A DNA stretch of 64,000 nucleotides from Sporosarcina sp. Marseille-Q4063 (GTDB lineage: Bacteria; Bacillota; Bacilli; Bacillales_A; Planococcaceae). This document shows, one piece after another, positions 44,685 through 54,174 of this stretch (position 1 is the first letter of the stretch; each line of letters begins with the position of its first letter). The stretch covers positions 3,715,001-3,779,000 of the forward strand of contig NZ_CP070502.1 in NCBI RefSeq assembly GCF_018309085.1. Reading direction: 5' to 3'. The notes beneath the pieces are model-generated. The model saw only the letters and a program-made list of their open reading frames with translations, was not told the DNA's origin and ran no database searches. A program made the position numbers and the translations under genes.

Positions 44685-44708
44685 AGCGGTACAAGGAGGA
44701 TGAGTCGG

Positions 44709-45587
44709 ATGAATGATTTAGTATCGATGCAACAATTAAGTGAAACAGAAATACTAGCACTTCTGGACCGCGCTCAAAACTTTGAAGAATACGGCGCACG
44801 TGAACTACCTAAAAAATATACGGTTTCAAATTTGTTTTTCGAACCGAGCACGAGAACAAAAACGAGTTTTGAAGTTGCAGAACGAAAACTTGGACTGGAC
44901 GTAGTTCCATTTGAAACAGGGCTTTCTAGTACGATAAAAGGCGAAACGCTCTATGACACTGTCAAAACCCTAGAGTCGATTGGACTCGATGCGCTCGTCA
45001 TACGTCATCCTGATGTCGGGTATTACGATCAGCTAATAGGCAAGACAAACATCTCCATCATTAACGGAGGGGACGGATCCGGTCAACATCCGACGCAGTC
45101 ACTGCTCGATTTATATACAATTCGCAAAGAGTTCGGTTCATTCGAAGGATTGAATATTGTCATTGCAGGGGATATTGCTCATAGCCGTGTGGCAAGATCG
45201 AATGCTGATGCTTTAACCAGACTGGGTGCTCATGTTACTTTCCTATGTCCAGCGGGATGGTGCGGTGAATTTGACGCAGTTCATGAGTGGAACGAGAATC
45301 TACTAAACTCGGATGTCGTGATGCTTCTCCGAGTCCAACATGAAAGACATAACGAAAAATCAATATTTACGAAAGAAAGCTATCATAACCAGTTTGGACT
45401 TACACTGGAACGCGCAAAAAGAATGAAAGAAAATGCGATTATCATGCATCCTGCACCATTCAATCGTGGTGTTGAAATAGATGAAGCTTTAATTGAATGT
45501 CCGAAATCAAGGATTTTCAAGCAAATGGAAAACGGTGTGTATATTCGAATGGCCGTACTAGAATTAATTCTAAATGGGAGGAATTAA
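44709..45587 (+). CDS. pyrB: Aspartate carbamoyltransferase catalytic subunit
   Basis: A 292-residue ATCase catalytic chain joining carbamoyl phosphate and aspartate. The carbamoyl phosphate loop is [16 protein letters not shown], the 80s-loop region [16 protein letters not shown] holds the conserved Lys, [12 protein letters not shown] supplies His and Gln, and [12 protein letters not shown] is the aspartate-side motif. No regulatory chain gene (pyrI) is present. ATG 44709 is nine bases after AAGGAGG; ATG 44700 overlaps that site. Confidence 0.96.
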
Positions 45588-45588
45588 C

Positions 45589-46866
45589 ATGGGAAAACTA
45601 ATTCAGGAAATACAATTACTAAATGGTGATGGGGAATTGATTACAAGAGATGTAAGAATAACGGGTGACAAAGTATCGGAAATCGGCGAGCAACTAGAAG
45701 TCGGAGGTTCGCAAGTCATTGACGGAAAAGGCCTGTTTCTTTCACCAGGATTTGTAGACGTTCATGTCCATTTACGCGAGCCGGGCGGAGAACATAAAGA
45801 AACGATTAAAAGTGGAACACTAGCAGCAGCAAAAGGCGGCTATACAACTATCTGTCCAATGCCAAATACAAGACCTGTACCGGATACGATAGAAAACCTG
45901 ACACTCGTAAATAAACTTATAGAAGAAAATGCACTCATTCGAGTACTCCCATATGCATCCATTACGATTCGCGAAGCAGGAAAAGAACGCACAAATCTGT
46001 CGGAATTAAAAGAACACGGCGCATTCGCATTTACAGATGACGGGGTAGGTGTTCAACAAGCAGGCATGATGTACGAAGCGATGCAAGACGCGGCGAAAAT
46101 CGGGATGGCAATTGTTGCACACTGTGAAGACAATACATTAATTTACGGCGGTGCGCTGCATGAAGGAAAACGAAATATGGAACTTGGCCTTCCTGGAATT
46201 CCATCCATTGCAGAATCCGTTCACATTGCACGCGATGTTCTGCTCGCAGAAGCTGCAGGCGCGCATTATCATGTTTGCCATGTAAGCACGAAGGAATCCG
46301 TCCGAGTCATTCGCGACGCAAAAAAAGCAGGCATTCATGTAACCGCGGAAGTGAGTCCTCACCATCTTCTATTATCGGAAAATGATATTCCGGGAGATGA
46401 CGCAGATTGGAAAATGAATCCGCCACTTCGCGGGGAAGATGACTTACAAGCACTTCGTGAAGGGTTACTAGACGGTACGCTAGACGTTATTGCAACGGAT
46501 CACGCACCGCATACAGCAGAAGAAAAAGCTGCAGGAACAAAAACAGCGCCATTCGGAATCACAGGGCTGGAAACAGCATTCCCGCTGTTGTATACAAACT
46601 TCGTGAAAAAAGGTACTTGGACACTTCAGCAACTGGTGGATTGGATGACGAAAAAACCAGCTGAAATTTTTGACTTGCCATACGGCACACTTGAAGTCGG
46701 AGCGACGGCAGATCTTGTTCTCATCGATTTGAATAAAGAACTAGCGATTGACCGAGAAACCTTCGTGTCAAAAGGAAAGAATACGCCATTTGACGGGTGG
46801 GTATGTGCTGGTTGGCCTGTGACAACAATTTTCGAAGGAAAAGTCGTTTGGGAGGATGGACAATAA
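45589..46866 (+). CDS. pyrC: Dihydroorotase
   Basis: A 425-residue class I zinc amidohydrolase forming dihydroorotate. The metal ligands are in [13 protein letters not shown] (HxH), [23 protein letters not shown] and IATDHAPHT, and the [11 protein letters not shown] loop is family typical. ATG 45589 follows GGGAGG one base after the pyrB stop. The stop codon shares an A with the carA start (TAATG). Confidence 0.96.
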
Positions 46867-47966
46867 TGAAGAAAAGAATGCTCATTTTGGAAGACGGCAC
46901 GACTTTTATTGGAAAAGCATTTGGTTCAGATGAAGCTTCAATAGGTGAAACAGTTTTCACGACAGGGATGACCGGCTACCAAGAAGTGATTTCAAATCCA
47001 TCCAATTGCGGACAAATGATTGTCATGACGTATCCGTTAATCGGGAACTACGGCATAAATCGCGATGATTTTGAATCGATCGAACCAGCGATGAACGGCA
47101 TTATCGTCCGAGAACTTGCCGACGAACCATCGAATTTCAGAAGCGATATGTCTTTGGATGAATTGCTGACTATGAAAGGCATTCCAGGAATTCAAGGCAT
47201 CGATACTCGAAAGTTAACACGCATTCTCCGCGAAAAAGGTCCGTTAAAAGGAATTCTTACGGCAACGGGTGAAGAAATCGACACCGCGGGAGAAATTGAG
47301 CGAGTAAAAGATTTCCAACTCCCGACAAATCTCGTTGCCAAGGTTTCAACCAAACGACCGTATCCAAGTCCAGGCCGCGGCGAACGTGTTGTCGTCATCG
47401 ATTACGGCATGAAACATGGCATATTAAGAGAATTGAACAAACGCGACTGCGACGTTATCGTCGTTCCGTATAATTCCTCATCCTTGGAAGTTCAGTCCTT
47501 GTATCCGGATGGCATCGTGTTAACGAATGGCCCGGGAAACCCAGAAGACGTTGCAGGCGCGGTTGATACAATAAAAGATTTGCTCGGTACAGCGCCGATC
47601 TTCGGCATCGGACTGGGTCACCAATTACTGGCGCTTGCATGCGGGGCTAGTGTTGTTAAATTGAAAAATGGCCATAGAGGCGGCAATTACCCGGTAAAAG
47701 ATTTACAAACGGGAAGAACAGAACTTACAGCGCAAGGTCACGGCTATGCAGTTGACGAGGCGACATTGGAAGGAACGGGTCTCCATGTAACGCATAAAGC
47801 GCTCAACGACGATTCAATTGAAGGTTTGGAAAGCACCGAGCACACAGCATTCTCAGTCCAATTTTATCCTGAAGCTTCACCTGGACCAGAAGATGCCAAT
47901 CATGTATTTGATCGTTTTACTGAACTAATGAAAACGAACAACCGAAAGGAGCAATTCAATGCCTAA
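46866..47966 (+). CDS. carA: Carbamoyl phosphate synthase small subunit with inactivated glutaminase site
   Basis: A 366-residue CarA/PyrAA. The N-terminal domain ([20 protein letters not shown] to about 165) and the class I amidotransferase domain (about 180-350) are both complete. The nucleophile motif, GICLGHQ in active CarA, reads GIGLGHQ: Gly249 (codon GGA, 47610-47612) replaces the Cys. The catalytic His of QxHPEAS is Tyr334 (TAT, 47865-47867), although Glu336 is kept. QNHG is QGHG and NHPVKD is NYPVKD. Glutamine hydrolysis therefore looks impossible. The frame is intact and the gene overlaps carB by eight bases, so a structural or ammonia-using role is likely rather than decay. Confidence 0.93.
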
Positions 47967-50900
47967 ACGAAACGATATCGAAACGATTTTAGTAATAGGT
48001 TCTGGACCGATTGTAATTGGCCAAGCGGCTGAATTTGATTATGCGGGGACGCAAGCTTGCCTTTCTTTAAAAGAAGAAGGTTACCGTGTGATTTTGATTA
48101 ACTCGAACCCTGCAACAATTATGACAGACACAGAAATTGCCGACAAAGTATATATCGAGCCAATCACGCTTGAATTCGTCAGTCGAATCATTCGAAAAGA
48201 ACGTCCAGATGCGCTGCTTGCAACATTAGGCGGTCAAACGGGACTAAATATGGCCATTGAGCTTCATGATTCTGGCATATTGGATGAGTTAAATATCGAA
48301 ATACTAGGAACGAAATTAGATGCCATTCACCAAGCGGAAGACCGTGATTTATTCCGCACGCTGATGAATGACCTCGGAGAACCCGTTCCGGAGAGCGATA
48401 TTATCCACAATCTTGACGAGGCGTTCGCATTTGTTGAACGAATTGGTTATCCGGTCATTGTTCGACCAGCCTTTACACTCGGTGGAACAGGCGGCGGGAT
48501 TTGCGAAAATGATGAAGAATTAAAAGAAATTGTTGCGAACGGATTGAAAGCGAGCCCGGTTACACAATGTCTTCTTGAAAAGTCCATTGCAGGTTTCAAG
48601 GAAATCGAATATGAAGTCATGCGTGACTCCGCAGATAACGCAATTGTCGTTTGTAATATGGAAAATATTGATGCAGTGGGGATTCATACTGGCGACTCAA
48701 TCGTAACAGCGCCATGTCAAACATTAACAGACCGTGAAAATCAAATGTTGCGAAATGTTTCCTTGAAAATCATTCGCGAATTGGGGATTGAAGGCGGTTG
48801 TAACGTTCAACTTGCGCTCGATCCGCATAGCTTTAACTACTATATTATCGAAGTGAATCCGCGTGTAAGTCGTTCTTCGGCACTCGCTTCCAAAGCGACT
48901 GGTTATCCAATCGCAAAATTAGCAGCGAAAATCGCAGTCGGCTTGACGCTAGATGAAATGATGAACCCGGTGACTGGAACAACATATGCCTGTTTTGAAC
49001 CGACACTTGATTATGTCGTGACAAAAATTCCGCGTTGGCCTTTTGATAAATTTGAATCTGCTAAACGAAATCTTGGCACTCAAATGAAAGCTACAGGAGA
49101 AGTCATGGCCATCGGGCGGACGTTTGAAGAGTCGATTTTGAAAGCGGTTCGTTCCCTAGAAGTTGGTCAATTTGACTTAGGCTTAAAAGATGGCGCTGGT
49201 ATGACCGATGAATGGATTGAAAAAAGAATCCGCCGTGCAGGTGACGAACGACTATTTTTTATCGGCGAAGCTTTGCGCAGAGGGGTTACAGTTGAGACCC
49301 TTCATGAGTGGAGTATGATCGATAAATTCTTCCTTCGTAAATTCGAAAACATTATTACTCATGAAGATGTTGTTGGTGCAGATCCATTCAATCCAAAAAC
49401 ATTATATGAAGCGAAACGCATGGGCTTTTCCGACGTTGCGATTGCAAAACTCTGGAATACAAAAGAAATCGAAGTATATAACTTGCGTAAAGAACTGGAC
49501 ATCATTCCAGTTTATAAAAAGGTTGATACATGCGCAGGTGAATACGAGTCCGATACACCTTATTTTTACGGAACTTATGAAGAAGAGAATGAATCGATTC
49601 GAACCGATAAAAAAAGCGTCATCGTATTAGGTTCTGGGCCGATACGAATCGGTCAAGGCGTCGAATTCGATTATGCGACGGTCCACTCTGTTTGGGCAAT
49701 CCAAGAATCAGGCTACGAAGCGATTATTGTTAATAATAATCCAGAAACAGTTTCGACGGACTTCTCCATATCAGATAAACTTTATTTTGAACCGTTAACG
49801 TTGGAAGATGTTATGAATATTATCGACCTTGAACAGCCAGAAGGCGTCATCGTTCAGTTCGGTGGACAAACCGCTATCAATCTCGCGGACGGACTTGAAG
49901 CACGCGGCGTGAAAATTTTAGGAACATCGCTTGAAGATACGGACCGTGCGGAAAATCGAAATAAATTCGAAAGTGCACTTCGTGAAATTAGTATCCCGCA
50001 ACCGCTTGGAAAGACGGCAGTCTCTGTTCCAGAAGCAATTGATATCGCCAATGAAATTGGGTATCCGGTTTTAGTTAGACCTTCTTACGTACTCGGCGGC
50101 CGTGCGATGGAAATCGTTTATGCGGAAAAAGAACTGATTTATTATATGGAACACGCGGTTGAGGCAAGTCCAGAACAACCCGTTTTGATTGACAGATATT
50201 TAACAGGAACTGAAATTGAAGTAGATGCAATCAGCGATGGGGAAAATGTTCTTATCCCAGGAATTATGGAACATATCGAACGCGCTGGCGTTCACTCCGG
50301 GGATTCAATCGCCGTGTTCCCGCCGCAAAATTTATCTGCTAAACATGTAGAAACAATTACGGATTACACAACAAGGCTTGCACAGGGTTTAAATATTATC
50401 GGGCTCCTTAATATCCAATACGTTATTTCAAAAGATGAAGTATATGTAATCGAAGTGAATCCGCGTTCAAGTCGTACCGTGCCGTTCTTGAGTAAAATTA
50501 CGAATATCCCGATGGCGAATATTGCAACGAAAGCAATCCTTGGACAATCAATTATTGAACAAGGCTATCCATCCGGACTTGCAGTAGCGCCAGAAGGGGT
50601 CTATGTAAAAGTTCCCGTGTTTTCATTTGAAAAACTTGGACGTGTGGATATCACACTTGGCCCTGAAATGAAATCGACTGGTGAGGTTATGGGGAAAGAC
50701 GTAACAATTGAAAAAGCGCTTTATAAAGGGCTTGTTGCAGCAGGTATGGAAGTAAAAGAATATGGATCGATATTAATGACAGTTTCCGATAAAGATAAAG
50801 AAGAAATTGTCGGGATTGCGAAACGATTTACGAATATCGGTTATCGAATTCTTGCAACAGAGGGAACTGCAACTGTGATAAAAGATGCGGGAATTCGCGT

Positions 50901-51152
50901 GGAAATGGTCGACAAAATCGGTTCGGAAGGGCCGACGCTTCTTGATGTCATACAAAAAGGCGAAGCTCAACTTGTTATTAATACACTGACAAAAGGAAAA
51001 CAACCGGAACGCGATGGTTTCAGAATTCGCCGTCAAACAGTCGAGAACGGAATCCCATGTTTCACATCACTGGATACTGCGATTGCAATGCTTCGCGTCA
51101 TCGAATCCATGACGTTCCAAACTGAAGAAATGATAAAACAAGAGGTGCGCGT

Positions 51153-51156
<4 letters not shown>
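47959..51156 (+). CDS. carB: Carbamoyl phosphate synthase large subunit
   Basis: A 1065-residue two-fold ATP-grasp synthetase that makes carbamoyl phosphate from ammonia, bicarbonate and two ATP. The two homologous halves begin [22 protein letters not shown] and [34 protein letters not shown] and [15 protein letters not shown] are the two grasp loops, and [20 protein letters not shown] with [17 protein letters not shown] the metal/ATP loops. The C-terminal allosteric domain (about 935-1065) is present. Nothing looks damaged, so ammonia-dependent activity should be retained despite the altered CarA. Confidence 0.97.
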
Positions 51157-53547
<2,391 letters not shown>

Positions 53548-54174
53548 ATGGTCAAAAAAGAAATTGCAGAAATTCTATTGAATGTCGGTGCCGTTGAAAT
53601 CAATCCCAACGAACCATTTACTTGGGCATCCGGCATTGAATCCCCAATTTATTGTGATAACCGACTAACGATGTCGGACCCGGTTGGTCGCAAACAAATT
53701 GCTGAAGGTCTTGCCGATTTGATCCGTACGAAATACCCGGAAACGACGATCATTGCTGGTACCGCAACAGCCGGAATTCCACATGCTGCATGGGTGGCAG
53801 ATATTCTTGGTTTGCCAATGGTTTATGTCCGATCATCAGCAAAAGGGCACGGAAGAAGTCGTCAAATTGAAGGGAAAATCAATCACGGCGATAAAGCGAT
53901 TATTGTAGAAGATTTAATCTCAACAGGAGGTAGTAGCTTAAACGCTGCCGCTGCGCTTCGCTCTGAAGATATTGAAGTTACGGGGATTGTCTCAATCTTT
54001 ACATATGAATTGAAGAAAGCTGATGAAGCCTTCGAAGCTGAAAAATTAACATACGAAAGTTTAACGAATTTCGGTGCACTAATTGAAGTATCGAAAGAAA
54101 AAGGTGTAATAGATGAAAACTCAATCAGCAGCTTGCTTGATTGGCATGGTAAATTAAAAGAAGGTAGATTATAA
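53548..54174 (+). CDS. pyrE: Orotate phosphoribosyltransferase
   Basis: A 208-residue type I PRTase forming OMP from orotate and PRPP. PRPP motif: DKAIIVEDLISTGGSSLNAA (about 112-131). TWASGIESPIYCDNR and the catalytic loop VRSSAKGHGRSRQIEGK are intact. It is the last gene of the operon, starting the base after pyrF stops and ending at a hairpin before the repeat array. Confidence 0.97.
   Translation: MVKKEIAEILLNVGAVEINPNEPFTWASGIESPIYCDNRLTMSDPVGRKQIAEGLADLIRTKYPETTIIAGTATAGIPHAAWVADILGLPMVYVRSSAKGHGRSRQIEGKINHGDKAIIVEDLISTGGSSLNAAAALRSEDIEVTGIVSIFTYELKKADEAFEAEKLTYESLTNFGALIEVSKEKGVIDENSISSLLDWHGKLKEGRL

Follow-up and report, generated by a model that had tools for sequence, protein, structure and literature searches.

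The carbamoyl phosphate synthase (CPS) encoded by carA and carB in the pyrimidine operon of Sporosarcina sp. Marseille-Q4063 is in all likelihood an ammonia-dependent enzyme (probability about 0.88), the small subunit of which would have lost the nucleophilic cysteine of its glutaminase before the genus arose, as one of several enzymes in which ammonia would have taken the place of glutamine. The original prediction, made for CarA from the letters of the operon, understated the scale of the phenomenon. Indeed, CTP synthase and asparagine synthetase are also affected, and carA or both carA and carB are missing from 22 of the 68 Sporosarcina genomes considered here. One genus and one operon thereby display, in living relatives, three states of the enzyme (glutaminase dead, small subunit gone, both subunits gone), and both the evolution of an ammonia-dependent CPS and the purpose of a retained but dead amidotransferase domain become directly testable. 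These observations also bear on the metabolism of the ureolytic Sporosarcina used in biocementation.

CarA and the pyrimidine operon of the window

The window, i.e. the whole stretch of DNA analysed (64,000 nucleotides; contig NZ_CP070502.1, positions 3,715,001 to 3,779,000), carries on its plus strand the intact operon pyrR-pyrP-pyrB-pyrC-carA-carB-pyrK-pyrD-pyrF-pyrE (table 1). Judged by its sequence, the product of carA belongs to the CarA family: it exceeds the cut-offs of NCBIfam NF009475 (469.8 bits against 221) and of the Pfam GATase model PF00117 (153.2 bits against 22.8), matches PF00988 (CPSase_sm_chain) with 168.9 bits, and displays the domain order CPSase_sm_chain, then class I GATase. 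When it is aligned in two stretches with Escherichia coli CarA, however, Gly249 occupies the place of the Cys in GICLGHQ and Tyr334 that of the His in GHPEAS, so that the glutaminase triad of the window's CarA reads Gly249, Tyr334 and Glu336. These two replacements had been predicted, together with QGHG for QNHG and NYP for NHP, and all four were found in the codons, while the complete operon order, the length of CarA and the strong profile match of CarB agree with the further claim that frame, length, operon position and CarB are intact.

A second, intact carA, for which a search had been proposed as a check, is lacking: the PF00988 profile returned a single match in the window's genome (one contig of 3,978,257 bases, 99.98% complete), and no more than one carA was found in any of the 46 carA-bearing genomes of the genus.

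Table 1. Pyrimidine operon genes and glutaminase residues of CarA in the window (positions counted from the first nucleotide of the window).
Feature	Position	Strand	Basis or remark
pyrB, aspartate carbamoyltransferase, uses carbamoyl phosphate	44700..45587	+	ORF and profile match
pyrC	45589..46866	+	directly before carA
carA (pyrAA), CPS small subunit, 366 aa	46866..47966	+	glutaminase triad broken
Gly249, codon GGA, at the catalytic Cys position (E. coli Cys269)	47610..47612	+	direct read, within FGIGLGHQ; alignment
Tyr275, codon TAC, replaces the His of GGNHP (GGNYP)	47688..47690	+	direct read
Gly291, codon GGT, replaces the Asn of QNHG (QGHG)	47736..47738	+	direct read
Tyr334, codon TAT, at the catalytic His position (E. 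coli His353)	47865..47867	+	direct read, within QFYPEAS
Glu336, codon GAA, triad Glu, kept	47871..47873	+	direct read
carB, large (synthase) subunit, 1065 aa, intact	47959..51156	+	NF003671, 1618.7 bits
pyrK, pyrD, pyrF, pyrE, remaining operon genes	51153..54174	+	

Distribution of Cys-less CarAs

Among 68 Sporosarcina genomes (64 of which reach 90% completeness with no more than 5% contamination), PF00988 matched one carA in each of 46 (43 of the 64 better-quality genomes). Every one of these 46 CarAs has Gly at the Cys position and retains the triad Glu, as well as the counterparts of E. coli Ser47, Gly241, Gly243, Gln273 and Glu355 (numbered, like all E. coli positions used here apart from Cys269 and His353, partly by counting from Cys269). 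The other positions vary: Tyr occupies the catalytic His position in nine CarAs and His in 37, only six retain the Asn of QNHG while 40 have another residue there, and the His of NHP is replaced in 28. In other genera, by contrast, the Cys is present in 66 of the 72 CarAs read (73 loci, minus the truncated L335), and all 66 of these also keep the catalytic His, the Asn of QNHG and the His of NHP. The alignment of related CarAs that had been suggested as a check thus gives a clear answer: loss of the Cys marks a clade and is fixed across Sporosarcina. A sequence error is excluded, because all 46 genus CarAs share Gly at the Cys position; Tyr replaces the catalytic His in the nine just mentioned. 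Within the best 120 listed CarA homologues (of approx. 8000 scored), the Cys is absent from 80 and present in 37, three being unreadable by pattern; where the Cys-less ones bear listed names, these are Sporosarcina and Filibacter tadaridae.

Outside Sporosarcina, Cys-less CarAs number at least six: five of 61 loci in named genera, from a scan that covered the best 80 of 583 relatives, namely three species of Lederbergia (L318, L327, L330), Edaphobacillus lindanitolerans (L333) and Bhargavaea massiliensis (L341), and one of 12 class-level loci (L184 of genome G092). The catalytic His is also gone in five of these six (Gln, Glu, Glu, Asn and Asp), and is kept in G092. In a tree of seven other pyr proteins (99 taxa, with 31 of the 73 outgroup loci chosen and genes of less than 50% coverage omitted), some deeper nodes of which are weakly supported, Edaphobacillus and Bhargavaea together form the sister group of Sporosarcina (support 1.00), Lederbergia stands beside the Cys-bearing G094 (support 0.98) and G092 beside the Cys-bearing G098 (support 1.00). 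Since Lederbergia and G092 each group with Cys-bearing lineages, the tree, read by eye, suggests that the Cys of CarA was lost at least three times. On the main reading, the loss seen in Sporosarcina would be older than the genus.

The equivalent of E. coli Gly293 was also considered, as a possible sign of a blocked ammonia tunnel like that of human CPS1. This position is Ser in six of the 46 genus CarAs, and is uninformative on the tunnel because Cys-bearing relatives vary there too (Ala or Ser in 24 of 66, Cys in one).

Selection on CarA and a proposed mechanism

In the GATase domain of Cys-less Sporosarcina CarAs, dN/dS lies between 0.016 and 0.091 (median 0.05; 14 pairs, not all independent), about equal to that of the N-terminal domain (median 0.06), as compared with 0.017–0.068 in Cys-bearing outgroups (median 0.03; 10 pairs, an eleventh being not computable). 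The Cys-less CarAs of other genera gave GATase-domain values of 0.040 and 0.122 for Lederbergia and 0.075 for Edaphobacillus/Bhargavaea (three of four pairs computable), and Sporosarcina CarB values of 0.014–0.046. The dead GATase domain is thus under strong purifying selection, somewhat relaxed with respect to intact outgroups. Values this far below 1 rule out a carA pseudogene and, together with the invariant Gly, lend support to the view, already put forward in the original prediction, of a selected loss of glutamine amidotransfer. CarA thus still has a job, which would presumably be to hold CarB in working shape.

According to the ammonia-dependent reading that we favour, CarA would be unable to hydrolyse glutamine, because its nucleophile Cys is gone, and would persist for its structural role beside CarB. 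Free NH3, likely to be abundant in the ureolytic and alkaliphilic life that we assume from the genus, and that the original prediction had also suggested in its ammonia-rich form, would reach the carboxyphosphate site of CarB directly, bypassing glutamine, and CarB would combine it with bicarbonate, at the cost of two ATP, to give carbamoyl phosphate. We infer ammonia as the actual donor, as we do the scaffold role of CarA, the order of events and the synthetic direction of the carbamate kinase discussed below. In E. coli, glutamine hydrolysis is described as requiring Cys269 and His353 of CarA, and carbamoyl phosphate as being made from ammonia by the large subunit (PMC6245113). The same source regards the use of ammonia by the E. 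coli enzyme as possible only if its concentration is very high and likely unphysiological, which counts against the ammonia reading.

Other amidotransferases and nitrogen assimilation

The same switch of donor would extend to CTP synthase and asparagine synthetase, and would be matched by a near-absent glutamate synthase and an often absent glutamine synthetase. In CTP synthase (PyrG), the catalytic Cys is replaced in all 69 sequences, from all 68 genus genomes (by Ala in three, Ser in 32 and Gly in 34), the His and Glu being kept in all 69; the window genome's enzyme reads GIALGMQ instead of GICLGMQ. CTP synthase would thus be the second enzyme of pyrimidine synthesis to have lost its glaminase function. 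Among 120 listed PyrG homologues (of approx. 8000 scored), 72 have the Cys and 48 lack it, and the eight Cys-less ones with an organism in their listed name are all Sporosarcina. One genome (G025) has a second CTP synthase (L253, contig C209), 56% identical to that of the window's genome and Cys-less as well (GVGLGMQ), which is probably contamination of a fragmented assembly.

For asparagine synthetase, the reading covers the window's genome, in which a PF13522 search retrieved two AsnB-like proteins (L254, C1:1409994; L255, C1:30541) without Cys2: one starts with MGGFVGG and the other with (GTG)NGFTGF in place of MCGF, so that residue 2 is Gly in one and Asn in the other. This search did not return GlmS and is thus not exhaustive, so that this genome may contain more class II proteins. 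In a list of 120 homologues of the MGGFVGG protein, itself included, Cys2 is present in 112 and replaced by Ser in three, Thr in one and Gly in one, three being unreadable.

As for nitrogen assimilation, a profile search of the window's genome for the catalytic domain of glutamine synthetase found nothing. Throughout the genus, this domain is absent from 27 of the 68 genomes and matched at length in 40 (three of these matches being weaker, at 330–340 bits), and the central domain of glutamate synthase was detected in two of 68; control genomes were positive for the two profiles in 14 of 14 and 13 of 14 cases, respectively. The one further genome, G017, holds only glnA-like fragments (C1:1289519-1289887), one of them with a stop, as if mid-decay.

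Glutamine has not been given up everywhere, because PurF and GuaA of the window's genome keep their Cys, as does L143, another class I protein (GICRGLQ); these three proteins, the 40 genomes with a long glutamine synthetase match and the somewhat relaxed constraint on the dead domain of CarA count against the ammonia reading. Our best reading is nevertheless that the CarA Cys was lost as the whole genus moved from glutamine towards free ammonia.

Loss of carA and carB in relatives

Both carA and carB are missing from 18 of the 68 genomes, and four more (G004, G036, G038 and G053) have lost carA and kept carB, whereas pyrB is matched in all 68 (67 over cut-off). In these 22 carA-less relatives, the next operon gene lies 36–112 nt after pyrC (measured between alignment ends), except for the 382 nt of G022, the assembly of which is frameshift-ridden and 83% complete. 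Read by eye on the assumption that lost genes do not return, the tree shows three lineages that lost carA and approximately six losses of carB, one of which rests on G022. Pyrimidine auxotrophy of the carAB-less genomes is unlikely because pyrB and the remaining operon are kept.

The CarBs of carB-only genomes are changed at 42 of the 593 positions that are invariant in the 53 other CarBs used for comparison, versus 0–9 positions in eight control clades (48 of the 50 genus CarBs were taken, two incomplete ones being omitted). Of these 42 positions, 27 are in residues 1-403, nine in 404-553, five in 554-627 and a single one beyond, a contrast at residue 627 with a Fisher p of 5e-8 for a split chosen after seeing the positions. 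Residues 1-403 and 404-553 correspond approximately to the carboxyphosphate and oligomerisation domains of CarB. These are the two domains that E. coli CarA is described as contacting (PMC6245113).

A CarA reduced to a scaffold would have become deletable, which may be the state of the four CarB-only genomes, and CarAB as a whole would finally have been deleted, as in the 18 others; on the ammonia-dependent reading, deletion of CarA would have been possible because it was only a scaffold.

Carbamate kinase in carA-less genomes

Once CarAB was lost, carbamoyl phosphate would perhaps have come from carbamate kinase. Each of the 22 carA-less genomes has a strong arcC match, 21 of these matches being over the TIGR00746 cut-off of 358.25 bits and the last one, in G022, split into two frames of 212 and 176 bits; among the 46 carA-bearing genomes, six have such a match (four over the cut-off, those of G030 and G008 just under it). 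The association between arcC and the absence of carA reaches a Fisher p of 9e-13 over 68 genomes that are not independent. Indeed, 24 of the 28 arcC genomes fall into three clades, within which all 22 carA-less genomes are found, and the effective sample is small because of this clustering. The window's genome has no arcC above the cut-off, with only a 21.5-bit match. The presence of arcC is not explained by an arginine deiminase pathway: arcA exceeds the TIGR01078 cut-off (489.1 bits) in none of the 68 genomes, the weak matches found in 65 of them reaching 56 bits at best.

That the carAB-less genomes obtain carbamoyl phosphate from a carbamate kinase acting on carbamate (ammonia plus bicarbonate) has, in our estimation, about an even chance of being correct. 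The more comprehensive proposal that Sporosarcina gave up glutamine stepwise as its main nitrogen currency, with CarA, CTP synthase and asparagine synthesis running on free ammonia and with anabolic carbamate kinase in the endpoint lineages, is tentative and falls somewhat short of such a chance.

Less probable, but to be taken seriously, is a supply of carbamoyl phosphate from allantoin or oxalurate breakdown through an oxamate carbamoyltransferase-type operon, instead of a synthetic carbamate kinase. In 25 of the 28 contexts fetched, arcC adjoins FdrA-like and AllG-like genes in an operon of this type, and one type of arcC operon also includes a gene of the malate/lactate-dehydrogenase family, putatively AllD-like. 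Pfam names AllG and AllH in two representative contexts, the labels FdrA and AllD being our own assignments, and the FdrA/AllG-like neighbours in G026 are only 40–52% identical. A cluster fdrA-ylbE-ylbF-ybcF is described in E. coli (PMC9843812). Such a route fits less well with G038, the arcC of which (L167, 4777-5715) has no fdrA or allG neighbours within 11 kb and lies near cytochrome oxidase-like genes, although this genome still has carB. Moreover, a supply derived from purines would be expected to be conditional, whereas the demand for pyrimidines is presumably constant.

An origin of carbamoyl phosphate from citrulline or arginine via ornithine carbamoyltransferase, or the import of pyrimidines, appears unlikely to a further degree. 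Thermococcus kodakarensis is described as lacking CPS and obtaining carbamoyl phosphate via the arginine synthetase pathway (PMC13260591, 2026), and most genus genomes have a second, weaker carbamoyltransferase match in addition to pyrB; yet no genome of the 68 has an arginine deiminase over the cut-off, and pyrB is retained with the remaining operon.

Alternative readings of CarAB

Two other explanations concern CarAB itself, and both are highly improbable. CarA could be a decaying relic of an enzyme that contributes little, pyrimidines or carbamoyl phosphate being obtained elsewhere, which would fit the 18 genomes devoid of carA and carB and the greater divergence of CarB where CarA is absent; however, dN/dS is far below 1 for both subunits, the operon with pyrB, pyrC, pyrD, pyrE and pyrF is intact, and the window's genome has only a sub-threshold match to the arcC profile. 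Still less credible is a CarAB that depends on glutamine after all, either through another CarA residue acting as the nucleophile or through another glutaminase of the cell docking on CarB, since the five residues conserved in all 46 CarAs and the strong constraint on the GATase domain are outweighed by the decay of the QNHG Asn and the NHP His, by a candidate Cys (in ALACGA, ten residues past Gly249) that is not conserved (Ser, Tyr, Leu, Asn or Gln in other CarAs), by the absence of carA from 22 genomes keeping pyrB, and by the parallel loss of the Cys of CTP synthase.

Comparison with known systems

The closest parallel is vertebrate CPS I. That it also lacks this Cys, as had been pointed out in the original prediction, agrees with PMC4655335, in which Ser is given as its replacement. 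In human CPS1 the triad Cys is replaced (Ser294), the dead domain is kept and ammonia is used as the donor (PMC4655335, PMC7657897); the window's CarAB likewise has the Cys replaced with the GATase domain and the synthase half kept, and its donor would be the same. However, human CPS1 is one long chain that serves the mitochondrial urea cycle and needs N-acetylglutamate, whereas Sporosarcina has CarA and CarB encoded separately in a bacterial pyrimidine operon, Gly in place of the Cys, and relatives without the small subunit. Because CarA and CarB are separate ORFs, and glutaminase and synthase are thus not joined in one chain, the window's CarAB is not filed as CPS I, even though it may work like CPS I in donor use.

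With bacterial CPS II, as represented by CarAB of E. coli and PyrAA/PyrAB of Bacillus, the window's CarAB shares subunits, domains, operon and equivalog families, but its CarA has no glutaminase nucleophile and lacks the triad by which a glutamine-hydrolysing CPS is defined. E. coli Cys269Gly and Cys269Ser proteins reportedly keep ammonia-dependent activity. The E. coli CarA mutants with Ser at Cys269 (PDB 1c30, 1c3o) were made in the laboratory, whereas the change described here is natural and fixed in a clade.

The arcC of the 18 carAB-less genomes may resemble the anabolic carbamate kinase (CK-like CPS) of Pyrococcus, in that carbamate would be phosphorylated to carbamoyl phosphate, although the latter enzyme comes from hyperthermophilic archaea and most arcC genes here are located in an allantoin-type operon. 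According to the title of a study by Alcantara from 2000, carbamate kinase can reportedly replace CPS in vivo. An anabolic role for this enzyme has been described as possibly limited to thermophilic archaea (PMC6022934), and the present proposal, if true, would place one outside hyperthermophilic archaea. The NAD synthetase family has likewise been studied for its use of glutamine versus ammonia (PMC3376133); it is a different enzyme from CarAB.

In the descriptions of PMC6245113 and PMC4655335, glutamine is treated as the donor of all bacterial CPSs, and ammonia as a speciality of vertebrate CPS1. Among the open-licence PMC papers listed, we found neither a report of a bacterial CarA or CTP synthase that is Cys-less by nature or depends on ammonia, nor a paper on the CPS of Sporosarcina. 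The enzyme families are known, and what seems to be new is a natural, genus-wide, putatively glutaminase-dead bacterial CPS with intermediates leading to the loss of the enzyme. Automatic annotation is also concerned, as the Cys-less CarA of the window scores over the cut-off of TIGR01368, a model named 'glutamine-hydrolyzing', even though its nucleophile Cys is absent.
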